A DNA stretch of 64,000 nucleotides from Acidobacteriota bacterium (GTDB lineage: Bacteria > Acidobacteriota > Vicinamibacteria > Vicinamibacterales > Fen-181), in the NCBI GenBank assembly GCA_003170135.1, contig PMZR01000009.1, forward strand, positions 62,001 to 126,000, read 5' to 3'. This document shows positions 11,002-63,575 of the stretch, piece by piece. Made by a program: the position numbers and the translations under genes. Numbering within the stretch: position 1 is the stretch's first letter; each line of letters begins with the position of its first letter. The notes under the pieces are model-generated. The model worked only from the letters and a program-made list of their open reading frames with translations, ran no database searches and was not told where the DNA came from.

Positions 11002-11140
11002 GTGCTATGTGCGAGGTGCGACGTGCGAGGTGCTGTGCATCGTGCGACGTGCGAGGTGCGAGGTGCGGTGCCTCGTGCTTTGTGCCTGGTGCGTGCGACG
11101 TGCGGCTGCGCTCGCGGTCCGCACTGCGCACCTCGCACGA
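11002..11140. repeat. Heptamer array, GTGCGAG type, with inverted end
   Basis: The gap between the TolC-like gene and the second ATPase gene is filled by 7-nt units such as GTGCGAG, GTGCGAC and GTGCTGT. The phase drifts in the middle, and copies in the opposite sense (CCTCGCAC) lie next to the TolC stop codon. The two senses could fold into an imperfect hairpin within the operon mRNA. It belongs to the heptamer family discussed in the findings. Confidence 0.8.
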
Positions 11141-26684: not shown

Positions 26685-26810
26685 GTTCGCAGTTGACAGC
26701 CAGCAGTTAGCCGCCGCGCGCCCGCCGCAGCGAATTGCCGACTGCGAACTGCCAACTGCGAACCGCCAACTCCGAACTGCTGACTGCTGACTGCCAACTG
26801 CTGACTGCCA
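26685..26810. repeat. Inverted heptamer array ending at a start codon
   Basis: Left arm: four units in one sense (GTTCGCA, GTTGACA, GCCAGCA, GTTAGCC, 26685-26712). Right arm: eleven units in the opposite sense (ACTGCGA, ACTGCCA, ACTGCTG and variants, 26734-26810) in unbroken phase. The two senses are complementary and could fold. The last unit stops six bases before ATG 26817, and no Shine-Dalgarno site is present. Confidence 0.85.
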
Positions 26811-26816
26811 ACTTAT

Positions 26817-32057: not shown

Positions 32058-33440
32058 CTAGATGGTCACCGTCTGCAGGTACTCCGGCATCTCGACGCTC
32101 CAGTGCAGGCGCGTCCGGATGGCCTCGCCAAGCGCCTGCATGGGCGCCGGCTCCCCGTGCACGAGGTAGGTGACGCGCGGCGGATGCTCGAAGTTCGCGA
32201 GCCATCGCAGGATTTCGGACTGGTCGGCGTGCGCCGACATCGACTGGATCTGCTCGACGCGCGCCGCGACCGGCACCATCTCGCCGTGGATCTTGACCTC
32301 GCGCGCCCCCTCGACGAGATCGCGGCCGCGCGTGCCGGCGGCCTGGTAGCCGGTAAACAGCACCGTGTTCCGGGCGTCGGGCAGCGTTGCCGCCAGGTGG
32401 AACAGTACGCGGCCGCCGGTCGCCATGCCGCTGGCCGAGATGACGATGGCCGGCGTCTTCGCAAAGGCCAGGTCGATCGACTGCTGCGTGGACGACACGA
32501 CGCGGAAACGGCGCGTGCAGAACGCGGACAGTTCGCCGCGCCCGGGTCTCATGTCCGGATCGAGCTCGTAGCTGCGCGCGGCGTACTGTTGCAGGGCCTG
32601 GGCGGCCATGGGGCTGTCGAGGTACACGGGCAGCACCGGGATCGCGTGCCGCTCCTCGAGGTGTTTCAGCCAGTAGATCACTTCCTCGACGCGGCCGATC
32701 GCGAACGCCGGCACGATCACTTTTCCGCCGCGCTGCACCGTCTCGCGAATGATTGACGCCAGGCGCTCCCCCTGGTCGTCGGCTTCGTGCAGCCGGTCGC
32801 CGTAGGTCGATTCGAGCAGCAGGACGTCGGCCGACGACATCGGCGACGGGTCCGGGAGAATCGGCCGATCGTAGCGGCCGAGATCGCCGCTGAACACGAG
32901 GCGCACGCGCGGCGGGCCCTGGATCGTCAGCACGACGAACCCCGACCCGAGCAGGTGCCCCGCGTTGACGAACTGGACCTCGACACCCGGCAGCACGGGC
33001 GCCGCACGGGCGTACCCGAACGGCTGCAGGTGCCCGAGCGCGCGAATCGCGTCGGTCTCGGTGAACAGCGGCAACGCCGGCGAGTGACGCGTGTAGCCAT
33101 GCCGGTTCGCCTCGCGCGCATCCTCCTCCGCCAGGCGGCCGGCGTCGGGCAGGACGATGCGACACAGATCCGCCGTGCCCGCGGTGCAGAACGCCCGGCC
33201 GCCAAACCCTTGGGCGACCAGCCGCGGCAGGAAGCCGGTATGGTCCACGTGCGCGTGGGTGAGCACGACGGCCGAGATCGAGTCGGCCGGGACCGGCAGC
33301 GGCTCCCAGTTGCGCAGGCGCAGCTCCTTGAGCCCCTGGAACAGGCCGCAGTCCATGAGCAGGCGCCGGCCGTCGATGTCGAGCAGGTATTTCGAGCCGG
33401 TGACCGTACGGGCGGCGCCGAGAAAGGTCAGCGAAGTCAT
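32058..33440 (-). CDS. Metallo-beta-lactamase/beta-CASP RNase (CPSF-like)
   Basis: A 460-residue nuclease of the YSH1/CPSF73-like group. Motifs: the N-terminal TFLGAARTVTGSKYLL, the HxHxDH zinc motif LTHAHVDHTG, SGDLGRYDRPIL, ESTYGDR, the beta-CASP Asp/Glu motif IVPAFAIGRVEEV, SASGMATGGRVLFHL, and the C-terminal SMSAHADQSEIL and LVHGEPAPMQAL. It is expected to process or degrade RNA. The ATG at 33440 lies directly against a heptamer array whose AGGGA unit may serve as a ribosome-binding site. Confidence 0.93.
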   Translation of the reverse strand: MTSLTFLGAARTVTGSKYLLDIDGRRLLMDCGLFQGLKELRLRNWEPLPVPADSISAVVLTHAHVDHTGFLPRLVAQGFGGRAFCTAGTADLCRIVLPDAGRLAEEDAREANRHGYTRHSPALPLFTETDAIRALGHLQPFGYARAAPVLPGVEVQFVNAGHLLGSGFVVLTIQGPPRVRLVFSGDLGRYDRPILPDPSPMSSADVLLLESTYGDRLHEADDQGERLASIIRETVQRGGKVIVPAFAIGRVEEVIYWLKHLEERHAIPVLPVYLDSPMAAQALQQYAARSYELDPDMRPGRGELSAFCTRRFRVVSSTQQSIDLAFAKTPAIVISASGMATGGRVLFHLAATLPDARNTVLFTGYQAAGTRGRDLVEGAREVKIHGEMVPVAARVEQIQSMSAHADQSEILRWLANFEHPPRVTYLVHGEPAPMQALGEAIRTRLHWSVEMPEYLQTVTI

Positions 33441-33480
33441 CCCTGGTCCCTGGTCCCTGGTCCTTGGTGCGTCAAGGACC
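33439..33480. repeat. Heptamer array, GTCCCTG type, touching a start codon
   Basis: Six units: ATCCCTG, GTCCCTG, GTCCCTG, GTCCTTG, GTGCGTC and the inverted AAGGACC. The first unit contains part of the start codon of the beta-CASP nuclease gene on the other strand. Confidence 0.75.
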
Positions 33481-33598
33481 ACGGTGGCAAGCACGAGGCC
33501 GCCGAGGTGCGCGCAGGACCGCCTCGCGAGGAGTCTATCAGAATCTGCTAAGCTGGAGACGAGCCGATCGCCTGCCTTCTGAGACCGAGGAGACATCG

Positions 33599-34384
33599 AT
33601 GAAGCGCCTCTTCAGCGCGGCGATTCTCGCATGCGTGTGCGCGTCGCCCGCGCGGGCCGACGTCACCGTCCGGACGACGAACAAGGGACCGATGGGCGAC
33701 ACCCCGTCGGTGCAATACATCAAGGGCACGAAGATGCGCGTCGAATCGTCGGTCATGGGCCGCGACACCGTGACCATCGTCGACGCCACGGCCAGGCAGA
33801 TGATCTCGCTCGATCCCGCGACCAGGCAGGCCACCATCTTCGACCTCGGCAGGATGGGCGAACAGATCCAGCAGTCGGCCAATCCCTCCGACGTGAAGGT
33901 GTCGATGAAGCCGACGGGAGAGACCAGGCAACTGCTCGGCCGCGACTGCGCCGAGTACCTGCTCGCCATCACCTTCTCGGTGACCCCGCCCGACGTCGCC
34001 AACGCCGGCGCGATGATTGTGACCATCGGCGGACCGATGTGGGTGGCCAGGGATGCGCCTGGCACCCGGGACTTCCAGGCCTTCTACAGGGCCGCCAGCG
34101 AAGGCGGCCTGTTCTTCGCGCCGGGCGGGCGCGGGGGCCGCGGCAACCCGGGCGTGAACGAGCGGGGCATGGCCGCGATGTACAAGGCCTACGCCGACAC
34201 GATGGGCATCCCCTACGAGCAGCAGATCGAGATCAAGATGGACGGCAGCGGGCCGATGGCCGAGATGATGCGGGGGCGGGGCGGACCGCCGACGACCACC
34301 ATCACGGTGACGGCCATCTCGACCGATCCGATCCCGGACGACAAGTTCGAGATCCCGGCGGGATACAGCAGGAGGAATCAGTAG
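33599..34384 (+). CDS. Exported DUF4412-type protein
   Basis: A 261-residue protein with a signal peptide cut after SPARA. The conserved body has YIKGTKMRVESSVMGRDTVTIVD, QMISLDPATRQATIFDL and LLGRDCAEYLLAITFSV, a pattern of DUF4412 proteins in which a small beta-rich domain may carry a lipophilic ligand. A Gly/Arg-rich linker (GGRGGRGNPG) lies at about residue 182. GAGGAGA precedes ATG 33599. It is followed after 2 bp by the MTHFR-like gene. Confidence 0.8.
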   Translation: MKRLFSAAILACVCASPARADVTVRTTNKGPMGDTPSVQYIKGTKMRVESSVMGRDTVTIVDATARQMISLDPATRQATIFDLGRMGEQIQQSANPSDVKVSMKPTGETRQLLGRDCAEYLLAITFSVTPPDVANAGAMIVTIGGPMWVARDAPGTRDFQAFYRAASEGGLFFAPGGRGGRGNPGVNERGMAAMYKAYADTMGIPYEQQIEIKMDGSGPMAEMMRGRGGPPTTTITVTAISTDPIPDDKFEIPAGYSRRNQ

Positions 34385-34386
34385 GG

Positions 34387-35241
34387 TTGCCGAACCTTCT
34401 CGACGCGCTGAAGACGACGCCGAACGTCATCGCGGCCGAATTGCGACCGCCGCGCGCCGAGCTGGAATCGGCCGAGGGGATCGACGCGTGGATCGACACG
34501 TACCACGCGGTGCGGCGGCTGACGCGCGAGGACACGTTCGTCTTCCTGACCGACAGCGCCGTCGGAGCGGAGGAGGAGGACAACGTCCGCCACCTGGTCA
34601 CCAACCTCGGCCCAGACGTGTCCCGCGAGCGCATCGTCCCGTTCCTGACATCGAAGCATTCGCTGGAATACTGCCTGGCCTACGCCGAACGCGCCCGCCA
34701 GCACGGCCTGCCGGCGCTGGTGGTGCTGGGCGGCGATCGGAACGTGGGTACGCCGCGTTGCGTGACGCACGCGTTCCAGCTGCGACAGGCGATCCGCAGC
34801 GTGGCGCCCGGTCTGCTGCTCGGCGGCTGGGCGAATCCGTACGCCGATCCCGCGCAGCAGGCGCGGCTGCTCGGGGACCCGCAGTTCACGGGAGACTTCT
34901 TCCTGACGCAGATCGTCTCGCATCACCGCCTCGAACCGGTCCGGCGGTTCATCGGCGAGCTCGAGCGCGAGCGCGTGGCGCTGCCCGGCCTGTTCGGCCT
35001 CTTTTTCTACCGGAGCGCGAACCCGCGCACGCTGGCGATGCTCTCGCGCTTCCTGCCGGTCCCCGTCGAGGACCTGTCGCGCGAGTTTGCGGAGGTGCGC
35101 GACCCGGTTGAAGTGTGCGCCCGGACGGTGCGCGCCATGCTGGACGCGGGCGTGCGCCATTTCTACGTCAGCAATCTGCCGCTCGGTCGCGCGCGCGAAA
35201 CGCTCAAGGCGATCATGGACCGGGCGGGGGCGAAGACGTAG
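34387..35241 (+). CDS. Methylenetetrahydrofolate reductase-like TIM-barrel protein
   Basis: A 284-residue protein. From TTG 34387 (AGGAGG about 11 bases upstream, overlapping the end of the previous gene) it reads PNLLDALKTTPNVIAAELRPP, then VFLTDSAVGAEEEDN, RIVPFLTSKHSLEYCLAYA, PALVVLGGDRNVG and FFLTQIVSHHRLEPV. This order resembles the MetF barrel: the N-terminal substrate Glu, then the GD motif for flavin, then QxV for folate. It is a divergent member and the reaction is not proven. It is probably cotranscribed with the DUF4412 gene. Confidence 0.7.
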   Translation: MPNLLDALKTTPNVIAAELRPPRAELESAEGIDAWIDTYHAVRRLTREDTFVFLTDSAVGAEEEDNVRHLVTNLGPDVSRERIVPFLTSKHSLEYCLAYAERARQHGLPALVVLGGDRNVGTPRCVTHAFQLRQAIRSVAPGLLLGGWANPYADPAQQARLLGDPQFTGDFFLTQIVSHHRLEPVRRFIGELERERVALPGLFGLFFYRSANPRTLAMLSRFLPVPVEDLSREFAEVRDPVEVCARTVRAMLDAGVRHFYVSNLPLGRARETLKAIMDRAGAKT

Positions 35242-35253
35242 GACGATCACGTC

Positions 35254-35302
35254 GTCCGGAGTCCGGAGTCCGGAGTCCGGTGTCCGGGGTCCGGTGTCCG
35301 AC
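35254..35302. repeat. Heptamer array, GTCCGGA type
   Basis: Seven perfect-phase units: GTCCGGA three times, GTCCGGT, GTCCGGG, GTCCGGT, GTCCGAC. It fills most of the gap before the aminotransferase gene but leaves that gene its own AAGGGA ribosome-binding site. Confidence 0.85.
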
Positions 35303-35316
35303 GAGCAAAGGGACTC

Positions 35317-36555
<1,239 letters not shown>

Positions 36556-36570
<15 letters not shown>

Positions 36571-36661
36571 TCCTTGGTCCCTGGTGCGTGGTGCGGGGTC
36601 CTTGGTGCGCACCACGCACCCCGCACCACGCACCAGGGACCAAGGACCAAGGACCAAGGAC
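36556..36661. repeat. Mirror-image heptamer hairpin between convergent genes
   Basis: Left arm of seven units (GTCCTTG, GTCCCTA, GTCCTTG, GTCCCTG, GTGCGTG, GTGCGGG, GTCCTTG), an 8-bp palindromic centre GTGCGCAC, and a right arm of seven inverted units (CACGCAC, CCCGCAC, CACGCAC, CAGGGAC, then CAAGGAC three times). Five of seven unit pairs are exactly complementary, in the same order. The aminotransferase stop (36568-36570) is inside the left arm and the SDR stop begins two bases after the right arm. A likely bidirectional terminator. Confidence 0.9.
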
Positions 36662-36663
36662 TA

Positions 36664-37404
36664 TCACCGGATATGCCGTCCCCCATCCACGCGGATCGTC
36701 TCGCCCGTGATGAAGTCGCTGTCGACGAGCGCGGCGACCACCTTGGCGATCTCTCCCCCGCCTCCCCACTGACCGAGCGGTGTGGCTTTCTCGACCGACT
36801 CGTGCTCGTCATCGGCCAGGTCCGGCGGCGCCAGGATTGGTCCGGGCGCGATGGCGTTGACGAGAATGCGATCCCCGGCAAGTTCCAGCGCCAGCGCTTC
36901 CGTGAGCCCGATGACGGTCGCCTTCGCGACGTAGTAGGTCAGGAATCCCTTGTATCGCGGCCGGTGGCTGTAGGCGAGCCAGTCCGAGAAGTTGATGACG
37001 CGCCCGCCGCCCTGCGCGCGCATGAACGGCACCGCGGCCTGCGTGCACAGGAACGCCGCCCGCGCATCGATGCCCAGGCTCGCGTCCCACTGCGCCTCGG
37101 TCAGGTCGTCGTAAGGCGTCGACACGTAGACTGAGGCCATGTTGATCAGGATATCGAGACGTCCCATCGCGGTCGCAACCTGGGTGACCAGGGTGCGGCA
37201 GTCCTCGGGCCTGCCGAGGTCCGCCTGCACGGCGAGGGCGCGCCGGTTCAGCGCGCGGACGGCGCCGGCCGTCTGGTCGGCCTCGGTGCGGGACCGGTTG
37301 TAACTGAGCGCGACGTCCGCGCCGCGCCGCGCCAGATCGATCGCCACGGTGGCGCCGATCCGTTTCCCGCCCGTGATCAGCACCACGCGGTTCGCAATGT
37401 CCAT
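36664..37404 (-). CDS. Short-chain dehydrogenase/reductase
   Basis: A 246-residue classical SDR. The cofactor motif is VLITGGKRIGATVAIDLAR (TGGxxxIG, typical of the PTR1/FabG-like branch), with NMAS replacing NNAG, the catalytic YYVAKA (Y-x3-K) after a Ser, and the C-terminal ITGETIRVDGGRHI. NADPH preference is plausible because of the Arg after strand 2 (SYNRSR). The substrate could be a pteridine or a 3-oxoacyl compound; this cannot be decided. Confidence 0.92.
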   Translation of the reverse strand: MDIANRVVLITGGKRIGATVAIDLARRGADVALSYNRSRTEADQTAGAVRALNRRALAVQADLGRPEDCRTLVTQVATAMGRLDILINMASVYVSTPYDDLTEAQWDASLGIDARAAFLCTQAAVPFMRAQGGGRVINFSDWLAYSHRPRYKGFLTYYVAKATVIGLTEALALELAGDRILVNAIAPGPILAPPDLADDEHESVEKATPLGQWGGGGEIAKVVAALVDSDFITGETIRVDGGRHIR

Positions 37405-37691
37405 AAGTGCGCTCGCTTTTGGCCATGAGCCCGTTCACGCCCTGAGGCATGAGCCTCAACAGTCATGGGCCCTTGTCGTCCCAGCCTAATCCGCTCGCCG
37501 GTCGAGCGACAAGCGACGAGTCAATTGCTTCGGGTCTTCATCGAGCGACGCCACCCAGAGACGAATGAAAGGAGCAGATCGCACCGTCCTCAGAATGATA
37601 TCCACACGGTTCTTGCAAGCTTACTCGGTCCTCTCCGCACCCGCTGACCAGCTTCCTCTTCCTGCAGGGGGAATGATCGCGGGCCGAGCAG

Positions 37692-40114
37692 ATGCCTCGT
37701 CCGCCGATCGCGACGCGAATGGGTATGGCCAAGAAGAAGGCGCGGCGCGGCGCAGCCAGACCGACGCGCGGACGGTCCGCAAAGGCGTCGAAGCCGGTCG
37801 AGCCGGCGCCGAACGCCGTCGCGCCGGCCATGCCGGCCCAGCCGTTTGCCATCGTCGGGATCGGGATGTCGGCGGGCGGGCTGGAGGCCTACTCGCAACT
37901 GCTCGAGTCGCTGCCCGCGCAGCCGAAATTCGCGATGGTGCTCATCCCGCACCTCGCGCCCCATCATCACAGCACCCTGCCTGAGCTGCTCGCCGAGCGC
38001 GGGCGCATGCCGGTGGTCCAAGCGACCGACATGATGCCGGTCGAGCCGAACAAGCTCTATGTCATTCCGCCCGACGCGCTGATGGAGCTCGGCGGCGGCG
38101 TGCTGCGCCTGCTGCCCCGGCCGACCGAACAACACATCGCGCTCCCGATCGATTTCTTCCTGAACTCGCTTGCCGCGGTTCAAGCCGACCGCGCGGTGGC
38201 CGTTATCCTGTCGGGCACCGGCAGTGACGGCACGCTGGGCATCCGCTTCGTCAAGGCGATGGGCTGGAGATCCTCCAGTTCCGCGGACACACCGGGGCAT
38301 ACCTCGAGCCGCCGCCCGGCGACGCGAACCTCAGCGTGCTGAAGCTCGCGCGCGAGGGGTTGCTGCACGGCTTGCGAACGGCGCTGCAGCAGGCCCGCAA
38401 GACGCGCAAGCCGGTGCGCAAGACGGGGCTTCGCGTCCGTTCGAACGGGGCCTGGACGGACGTCGATCTCGAGGTGCTTCCGCTGGCCGGCCTGTCCTCG
38501 TTGCACTTCCTCGTCCTCTTCGATCGGCCCGGCCCGAAAGCGCACCCCGCCCCGGCGGCGTCCACCCGCCGTGGCAAGGCCGCGCCACGCGGCGGCCGGA
38601 ACACCGAGCGCCTCGAGCAGGAACTGGCCGCCACGCGCGAGTACCTGCAGTCGATCATCGAGGAAGTGGAAGCGGCCAACGAGGAAATCCTGTCGAGCAA
38701 CGAGGAATTGCAGTCCACCAACGAGGAGCTGGACACCGCCCGCGAGGAGCTGCAGGGAATGCTCTCCCACGTGCTGGGATGTCCCGACCAGGGACCGGGG
38801 ATCGTCGAGGTGCGGCTGCGGACCGCGGCCGGCGTCAAACCCGTGCAGCTCGTCACGCGACGCGACCCGGTTGCCGCCCGGACCGGCGTCTCCTACCACA
38901 CGGCGATCGTGGATCTGACCGACGTGCGCCGGCTCGAAGAGGCTCGGCAGCAGGCGGAACACGCCCGGCAGAAGAGCCTCGAGGGCGAGCGCGCCGCGCG
39001 CGCCGCGAACCAGGCCAAGGACCGGTTCCTCGCGATGCTGTCGCACGAACTGCGCACGCCGCTGACGCCGATCCTGGCGGCCGCCGACTGGATGGCGTCG
39101 CAATCGACGGTGACGCCGGATCTCGCCGGCAAGATCGACACCGTTCGCCGCAACGTCAGGGCCGAAGCGCACCTGATCGACGACCTGCTCGACGTCGCGC
39201 GCATCACGCAGAAGGACCTGACGATCCACCGCCTGCCGGTCGACCTGCACCGCGTGATTGCCGACACGCTGGACGGCTGGACGACGGTCCTGTCGCAGCG
39301 ACGCATCACGCTCGACGTGCAGCTGCAGGCCGGCGCCTGCTGAGTGAACGGCGACGCCGCGCGCCTCGCCCAGGTCTTCCGCAACCTGATCAGCAACGCC
39401 GTGAAGTTCACCGACGAGGGCGGCCGCATCGCCGTCACGTCCAGGGCGCGAGGCCGTCGCATCCGCGTTACGGTCACTGACAGCGGCGTCGGCATGACCG
39501 AGGCGCAGCAGCGCCGGTTGTTCCAACCGTTCATCACGAAGGACAGCGGGGTGACGCGCCGCGGCCTCGGCCTCGGCCTCGTCATCTCACAGGCGATCGT
39601 GGCGGCGCACGACGGCCGCCTCGAGGTCACGAGCCCGGGCGGTGGCCGGGGGACGACGGCCTGCGTGGAACTTGCAACCATCGCGGCGCCGGCGAAGCCG
39701 GAGAACGCACGGGTCGCCGCTGCTGGCGCACCCGCGGAGGTCGCGCCACTGCGCCCCGCGCGCGTGTTGCTGGTCGAAGACGACGTGGACAGCGCGCAGA
39801 TGTTCGCGCTGCTCTTCTCGTCGGCAGGCTTCGACGTGCAGGTGGCCGGGTCGGTATATGCGGCACTGCAGCTTGCGGACAGTTGCGAGGTGCTGGTCAG
39901 CGACGTCGCGCTGCCCGACGGCAGCGGGCTCGATCTCATGTGGACGCTGAGGGCCCGGCGGCCGACCCGCGCGATTGCCCTGAGCGGCTACGGCGGCGCG
40001 CAGGACGTGCAGCGCAGCCTGGCGGCGGGATTCAGGCAGCACTTGACGAAGCCCGTGGACCTGGACCAACTCATCGCCGCGGTGCGGCGGCTCGTAGACG
40101 AACCGCCGGCTTGA
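37692..40114 (+). pseudogene. Broken CheB/CheR-type hybrid histidine kinase
   Basis: Three open segments in two frames reconstruct a remnant of a CheB-CheR-PAS-kinase-receiver protein. Segment 1 (to about 38262) is the CheB N-terminal half (VGIGMSAGGLEAY, SGTGSDGTLGIRFVKAMG). It then jumps, with a frame change, to the region that normally follows the CheR domain (EILQFRGHTGAYLEPPPGD at 38267), the long coiled coil (EEVEAANEEILSSNEELQ), and the HisKA box MLSHELRTPLTPIL. A TGA at 39341-39343 interrupts the protein just before the ATPase N-box (VNGDAARLAQVFRNLISNAV), where relatives usually have Trp. The HATPase (GLGLGLVIS) and a receiver domain (VLLVEDD, SDVALPDG) follow. The rest of CheB and all of CheR are missing. 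Confidence 0.85.
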
Positions 40115-52897: not shown

Positions 52898-52953
52898 GTG
52901 CGTGGTGCGGCGTGCGCGGTGCGATGTGCGCGGCGGGTTGCGAAGCGTGGAAT
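52898..52953. repeat. Heptamer array, GTGCGNN type
   Basis: Eight units: GTGCGTG, GTGCGGC, GTGCGCG, GTGCGAT, GTGCGCG, GCGGGTT, GCGAAGC, GTGGAAT. The array ends immediately before the stop codon of the ACT-domain gene. Confidence 0.75.
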
Positions 52954-63520: not shown

Positions 63521-63575
63521 GTCCGAAGGCCGAAGTCCGAGGTCCGAAGTCGACTCCGGACCCCGGACTTCGGAC
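63521..63575. repeat. Inverted heptamer array, GTCCGAA type
   Basis: Left arm of four units (GTCCGAA, GGCCGAA, GTCCGAG, GTCCGAA), centre GTCGAC, right arm of three inverted units (TCCGGAC, CCCGGAC, TTCGGAC). It occupies the divergent region between the aldehyde dehydrogenase and CoA-transferase genes. Confidence 0.85.

Follow-up and report, generated by a model that had tools for sequence, protein, structure and literature searches.

Between two convergent genes, for an aminotransferase and an SDR oxidoreductase (short-chain dehydrogenase), lies a 106-base hairpin built from seven-base units (36556–36661 of the window, the whole stretch of 64 000 nucleotides that was analysed). Is this a cruciform or RNA hairpin maintained by selection, as a preliminary description of the locus proposed, or the end product of a mutational process that multiplies heptamers and copies one arm into the other? 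Long simple sequence repeats are dominated by 7-mers (PMC4679880, and Mrazek 2007 to the extent that it is cited there), and the dominance of seven-base repeats among bacterial long simple repeats has so far had no explanation. The present genome carries many paired arrays in many unit families, which opens the question of their origin to numbers.

Structure of the hairpin

The two arms of 53 nt follow each other without a loop and form 49 pairs, leaving mismatches at four of the 53 positions. The mirror-ordered heptamer arms around an 8 bp palindrome given in the preliminary description are borne out to the base, and the 8 bp lie within a perfect palindrome of 12 bp (Table 1). The same inverted repeat was recovered by a separate inverted-repeat search. 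Written as its reverse complement, the right arm reads GTCCTTG GTCCTTG GTCCTTG GTCCCTG GTGCGTG GTGCGGG GTGCGTG GTGC. Direct reading against the left arm confirms that five of the seven unit pairs match exactly and in mirror order; one of the two other pairs had been said to differ by two bases, which is true of that pair, and in fact both differ by two. The unit order is mirrored beyond that of permuted units (p = 0.007, or p = 0.02 when judged by folding). Several further palindromic arrays in the genome also have a GGTGCGCACC centre.

Measured against dinucleotide shuffles, the fold of the hairpin is extreme as RNA of the + strand (−104.6 kcal/mol, z = −13.2), as RNA of the − strand (−111.9, z = −15.1) and as DNA (z = −13.2), and in each of the three tests all 200 shuffles folded less well. 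Within a 744 kb sample of its own genome, no zero-loop palindrome is stronger. Comparison of 33000–40000 with Rfam gave no match to a curated RNA family. Intrinsic (rho-independent) terminators, i.e. a GC stem followed by a U-tract, were searched for in 36200–37000 with zero sites found, and this identity was dropped for lack of the U-tract.

Table 1. Features of the hairpin, its flanking genes and the nearby arrays
Feature	Position	Strand	Remarks
Left (5') arm	36556..36608	+	GTCCTTG GTCCCTA GTCCTTG GTCCCTG GTGCGTG GTGCGGG GTCCTTG GTGC; sequence read and inverted-repeat search
Right (3') arm	36609..36661	−	Inverted copies of left-arm units; 49/53 positions complementary
Centre TGGTGCGCACCA	36603..36614		Perfect 12 bp palindrome, includes the 8 bp described earlier
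Extended inverted repeat	36550..36667		59 nt arms, 90% complementary
Class I/II aminotransferase	35317..36570	+	PF00155, E = 5.5e-58
Aminotransferase TAG stop	36568..36570	+	Within left-arm unit CTAGTCC
SDR oxidoreductase (short-chain dehydrogenase), convergent	36664..37404	−	PF13561, E = 3.7e-44; TGA stop 2 nt from right arm
In-frame GTCCGAA heptamer array	36312..36372	+	Within the aminotransferase gene; loop shorter in most homologues
GTCCGGA heptamer array	35254..35300	+	Gap upstream of the aminotransferase gene

Flanking genes and stop codons

Both flanking stops lie where they had been placed, that of the aminotransferase gene inside the left arm and that of the SDR gene two bases beyond the end of the right arm. 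Without its TAG the aminotransferase frame would remain open to 37134, adding 188 codons that run antisense to the SDR gene. The final C-terminal residues of the enzyme, LVLGP, are encoded by the array, which has thus taken over the terminal residues and the stop of the gene. CTAGTCC, the source of this stop, is among the two units at which the mirror symmetry fails. Selection is therefore visible here against the mirror and not for it, and this only sign of selection at 36556–36661 is the reverse of what had been proposed. Further upstream in the same gene, the GTCCGAA array is inserted in frame (SEVRSPKSEVERPTSETQRPSEG); at this site of the aminotransferase, two relatives of the same family (L130 and L131) carry a long insert of different sequence.

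The same junction in related genomes

A comparison by aminotransferase sequence gives nearest relatives that belong, with few exceptions, to the Acidobacteriota, including some named Vicinamibacterales, and the convergent aminotransferase/SDR junction is conserved within the order. Among 24 relatives' junctions, all from genera other than that of the source genome, 15 have a gap of 11–45 bp and the stem is absent. The hairpin is thus an addition in this lineage that the two genes do not need. Several other junctions hold repeats of their own: an unrelated heptamer palindrome with GAATTNG units (L034), a non-heptamer hairpin with a perfect 29 nt stem (GACGAAAAAGGGGACGGGAGCTATTTTCC; L019), long-loop inverted repeats (L011 and L027) and other short repeats (L014).

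Heptamer arrays across the genome

The genome statistics come from the 744 kb sample, which was partly chosen around matches to the 36556–36661 palindrome. It contains 138 arrays of period 7, compared with 0–2 for each of the periods 5, 8, 10 and 11. Outside the targeted spots the density is still about 158 arrays per Mb, which extrapolates to some 900 heptamer loci in the genome. The chief unit families are GTCCYTG, GTGCGNN and GTCCGRA; others are CAGGART, GGTAGTS, GTTGGTC and GTTAACM. In the window itself, further arrays, which represent four or more unit families, are seen at 11002–11138, 26730–26813, 33440–33468, 35254–35300, 52898–52933 and 63521–63551. The hairpin at 36556–36661 is one of these roughly 160 heptamer arrays per Mb, and fills a short convergent-gene gap in this lineage.

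When placed relative to genes by our own dicodon calls, 109 of 152 merged arrays are intergenic, 26 lie at gene ends and 17 are within coding sequence. Array edges come within 5 nt of a gene far more often when facing a stop (46/148) than when facing a start (10/134), and divergent gaps hold few arrays. Genes that end at an array use TAG as their stop in 35 of 58 cases, compared with 171/508 (p = 1.4e-4); such an excess would follow from arrays providing the stop.

As in the heptanucleotide simple sequence repeats known as STRR or LSSR, degenerate 7 nt units are arranged head to tail at many loci, most of them intergenic, and their occurrence is patchy between related species. The six nearest genomes, all members of the same family, have no GGTCCYT arrays, and an array search over the order matched 14 of 162 genomes. 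Palindromic heptamer arrays are present in other families of the order too.

A few observations stand apart. In one genome of the Vicinamibacterales (G161; L184–L193 and L239–L243) period-8 and period-7 arrays are about equally frequent (16 and 18), and genome G038 has six period-9 arrays, so that the preferred repeat period differs between genera. At 33440–33596 of the window, the longest ORF of an MBL-fold/beta-CASP gene begins before the heptamer array and reads through it (..APRTRDQGPGM); the true start of this gene is probably a later ATG.

Polarity and mirror order of paired arrays

Paired arrays keep a constant polarity. Inverted GTSC neighbours are ordered GTSC...GSAC in 26 cases against one, or 31 against two when shorter runs are included, and two genera belonging to other families of the order give eight to zero. 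The same holds for unit families other than GTSC, where the G-richer array comes first in 15 of 16 pairs, or in 13 of 14 families when each is counted once. Base composition of the 5' arms follows suit, with G exceeding C in 45 of 61 informative arms (45 to 16) and T exceeding A in 46 of 61 (46 to 15). In array-free stems the G bias of the 5' arm is weaker (83 to 53). Of 50 single GTSC arrays, 40 are nearer to the ORF on their own 5' side (p = 2.4e-5). As in the repeats described by Rehm et al. (2015; PMC4692102), inverted pairs thus have one orientation and arrays are closer to the 5'-side ORF whatever its orientation. Several of these polarity counts draw on overlapping data and their p-values serve as guides.

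Mirror order was assessed by permuting units. In the 31 paired elements tested, folding is on average more favourable with the units in their natural order than after permutation (mean z = −1.65, Stouffer −8.9, seven elements below 0.05); the permutation also shifts small spacing irregularities, and the score measures order and spacing jointly. Strict unit-by-unit mirroring as a rule for every pair was dropped despite this clear average folding effect: across 27 pairs the Fisher p-value is 0.15 and many pairs depart from it. Individual pairs can be near perfect. At locus L091 (841–952) 39 of 39 positions are complementary around a loop of 34 nt, and at locus L101 (11160–11295) the non-heptamer bases are mirrored as well. 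The paired arrays at L089 (9906–10020) and L091 (843–950) have a similar loop, GCGGA.CAG.GGA...GGTGGACGAAGGAC, and judging from this likeness one may have been copied from the other or both from a common source.

The types of mismatch over all stems are close to balanced (GT 37, AC 37, CA 33, TG 24). In view of this balance, and without sorting by transcribed strand, they are uninformative as a mark of RNA selection and were set aside.

A model for the origin of the hairpin

On balance, 36556–36661 is probably a lineage-specific two-arm heptamer SSR of the STRR/LSSR kind that was expanded by slippage and mirrored by template switching in a hairpin. Slippage, the usual proposal for the expansion of 7-mers (Mrazek 2007, in so far as it is cited in PMC4679880 and PMC4692102), would first multiply the heptamer units. 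The nascent strand would then fold back and copy the 5' arm, such that the inverted arm is made and repeatedly corrected (template switching with quasipalindrome correction), with mirrored unit order and coordinated change on both arms as the expected outcome. Template switching is known to yield reverse-complement copies and to correct stems in blocks (PMC8794818, PMC8604942). This second step is suggested by the unit-permutation test, by near-perfect pairs that mirror non-heptamer bases and by the G–C/U–A asymmetry of the arms. Intrastrand switching corrects pairing according to the 5' base, whereby G–C and U–A come to exceed C–G and A–U in stems (PMC8794818); the excess of G over C and T over A in our arms is this same asymmetry and therefore counts for template switching. 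Thirdly, array growth would halt where coding sequence begins, which may be the reason that arrays abut stops, the position in which we find them. In the last step, which can be read directly at this locus, the array has overrun the end of the aminotransferase gene, where the variant unit CTAGTCC now gives the stop. On either strand the transcript is predicted to fold into a hairpin of great stability, by which 3' ends may be protected or the two convergent transcripts kept apart.

Judged from its end products, slippage with hairpin template switching, bounded by coding sequence, would account for the period, the mirror order, the coordinated change, the polarity and the position of the arrays. 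Slippage alone leaves the spread of the same unit families to many loci unexplained, and a spreading step is needed. The nearer 5'-side ORF of single arrays is likewise not explained by template switching alone, unless the singles are decayed pairs. The 5'-arm G bias of array-free stems, weaker as it is, and the many pairs that lack unit-by-unit mirroring also weigh against the model.

Possible selection for a hairpin

It is unlikely, if still worth weighing, that a selected RNA hairpin ends or protects both convergent transcripts, be it as a bidirectional terminator that works without a U-tract, as a 3'-end stabilizer or by slowing ribosomes near the stop in the manner of REPs. The great stability on both strands speaks for such a role, as does the position, no more than 15 nt from either stop, the distance at which stop-proximal REPs of E. 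coli affect translation and its termination (PMC12306157). The favouring of gene ends by arrays, their scarcity in divergent gaps and the unrelated long stems that L034 and L019 bear at the same junction are also in its favour. Against it stand the relatives' junctions that are free of a stem, the missing U-tract and the occurrence of similar arrays within genes; moreover, most paired elements sit in gaps between tandem genes and not between convergent ones. We infer that any role of the hairpin as a two-way structure at transcript 3' ends would be incidental; it is not a canonical terminator.

The earlier proposal that a cruciform or RNA hairpin is under selection is not substantiated at this site: besides the stem-free junctions and the absent U-tract, similar arrays occur at hundreds of unrelated places including coding sequence. 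Its companion idea, that the units act as modules changing in a coordinated way, survives in part. The hairpin and its modular mirrored order are real, as the 31 paired elements attest, but such an order also arises when one arm is copied into the other by template switching (PMC8794818, PMC8604942), and mirror order therefore need not mean selection. It supports arm-to-arm copying, and it cautions that a hairpin between genes, however perfect its compensation looks, is not necessarily a selected RNA structure.

Directional machinery, mobile elements and artefacts as less likely readings

A single polarity is seen over many unrelated units in several genera, and with other units in Xanthomonas too. 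On this basis the constant polarity of pairs could reflect a directional machinery acting at 3' DNA ends, either by appending heptamers or by folding back from them, and not random slippage; we regard this as improbable. If true, bacterial heptamer repeats would be the traces left by a specific process of repair or end extension.

We see still less reason to expect a mobile palindromic element of the REPIN or MITE type, mobilized by a Y1/RAYT enzyme or another transposase. The same families do occur at dozens of loci, the GGTCCYT arrays are missing from the nearest genomes, two Y1_Tnp genes are present and a similar loop is common to L089 (9936–9962) and L091 (880–913). However, unit number and sequence vary, leaving no fixed element and no fixed ends, and two-arm and single-arm forms both exist. 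No arrays lie within 1.5 kb of either Y1_Tnp gene, and with zero arrays beside the two genes a RAYT-driven REP family was dropped.

The specific version of directional addition, in which an enzyme extends 3' ends at breaks with G/T-richer heptamers and the extended ends are then joined as in telomere fusions, is more doubtful again by a shade. It would fit the polarity (from 26:1 to 31:2 in this genome, 8:0 in other genera), the precedence of the G-richer array in all but one of the non-GTSC pairs, the presence of a Ku gene and the many pairs that are unmatched unit by unit. On the other hand, the mirrored order in a subset requires copying, template switching already predicts part of the asymmetry (PMC8794818) and there is no candidate enzyme; a search for RVT_1 reverse transcriptases gave no match, and a reverse transcriptase as the generator of the arrays was dropped. 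An assembly artefact in the form of a short-read palindrome chimera, conceivable in a draft of 141 contigs with 5.6% contamination, is scarcely credible given arms that differ at four positions, unique flanks that carry on the conserved aminotransferase/SDR synteny and dozens of similar arrays over many contigs.

Comparison with known repeats

Paired convergent heptamer arrays are already known from Xanthomonas, where 70–75 convergent inverted pairs of GGGAATC arrays occur per genome; sense-strand arrays lie near stops and antisense-strand ones near starts, few are found between divergent genes, and their stem-loop potential is mentioned by the authors (Rehm et al. 2015, PMC4692102). Our arrays share with them the genome-wide 7 nt period, the constant convergent orientation of pairs and the placement relative to genes. 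They differ in that many unit families are present, that mirror order has been measured and that a stop lies inside an array. In addition, the main units here (GTCCCTG, GTCCTTG, GTGCGAN and GTCCGRA, i.e. the GTCCYTG, GTGCGNN and GTCCGRA families) contain no GGG and so lack the G-quadruplex character of the Rehm-type unit. G-quadruplexes can therefore not be the general reason for the polarity; it is a prediction of intrastrand template switching but does not follow from the G-quadruplex idea. What is new is the phylum, the non-G4 units, and mirror order and polarity measured across unit families.

In the P6b hairpin of the Nostoc tRNA-Leu intron, degenerate heptamers pair with each other (PMC3488679, for the part in which it cites Costa et al. 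2002); as far as that account goes, these cyanobacterial STRR heptamers resemble ours in having degenerate units on both sides of a stem and a repeat number that varies by lineage, and they differ in being intronic, in their unit sequences and in the phylum. The TAACTGA repeats of Beggiatoaceae have period seven, are intergenic and are patchy between species as ours are, but they are mostly direct repeats located before start codons, with one indirect repeat reported in the genome (PMC4679880). REP, BIME and REPIN sequences are likewise numerous intergenic palindromes near stops; they are fixed palindromes of 20–40 bp with a RAYT transposase, whereas our arms consist of heptamer arrays that vary and have no RAYT gene next to them. 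Template-switch hairpins (PMC8794818, PMC8604942) also resemble our arrays, with perfect or corrected inverted arms, compensatory changes in blocks and the G–C and U–A arm asymmetry, although those were described in rRNA, microRNA and yeast genes and not in heptamer arrays.

At 37692–39343 of the window, the match to a CheB methylesterase domain ends at position 136 of 174 near the end of the ORF 37692–38342, and the following ORF starts 8 nt earlier in a different frame. Judging from these reading frames, a frameshift in this CheB/CheR-type gene is possible.
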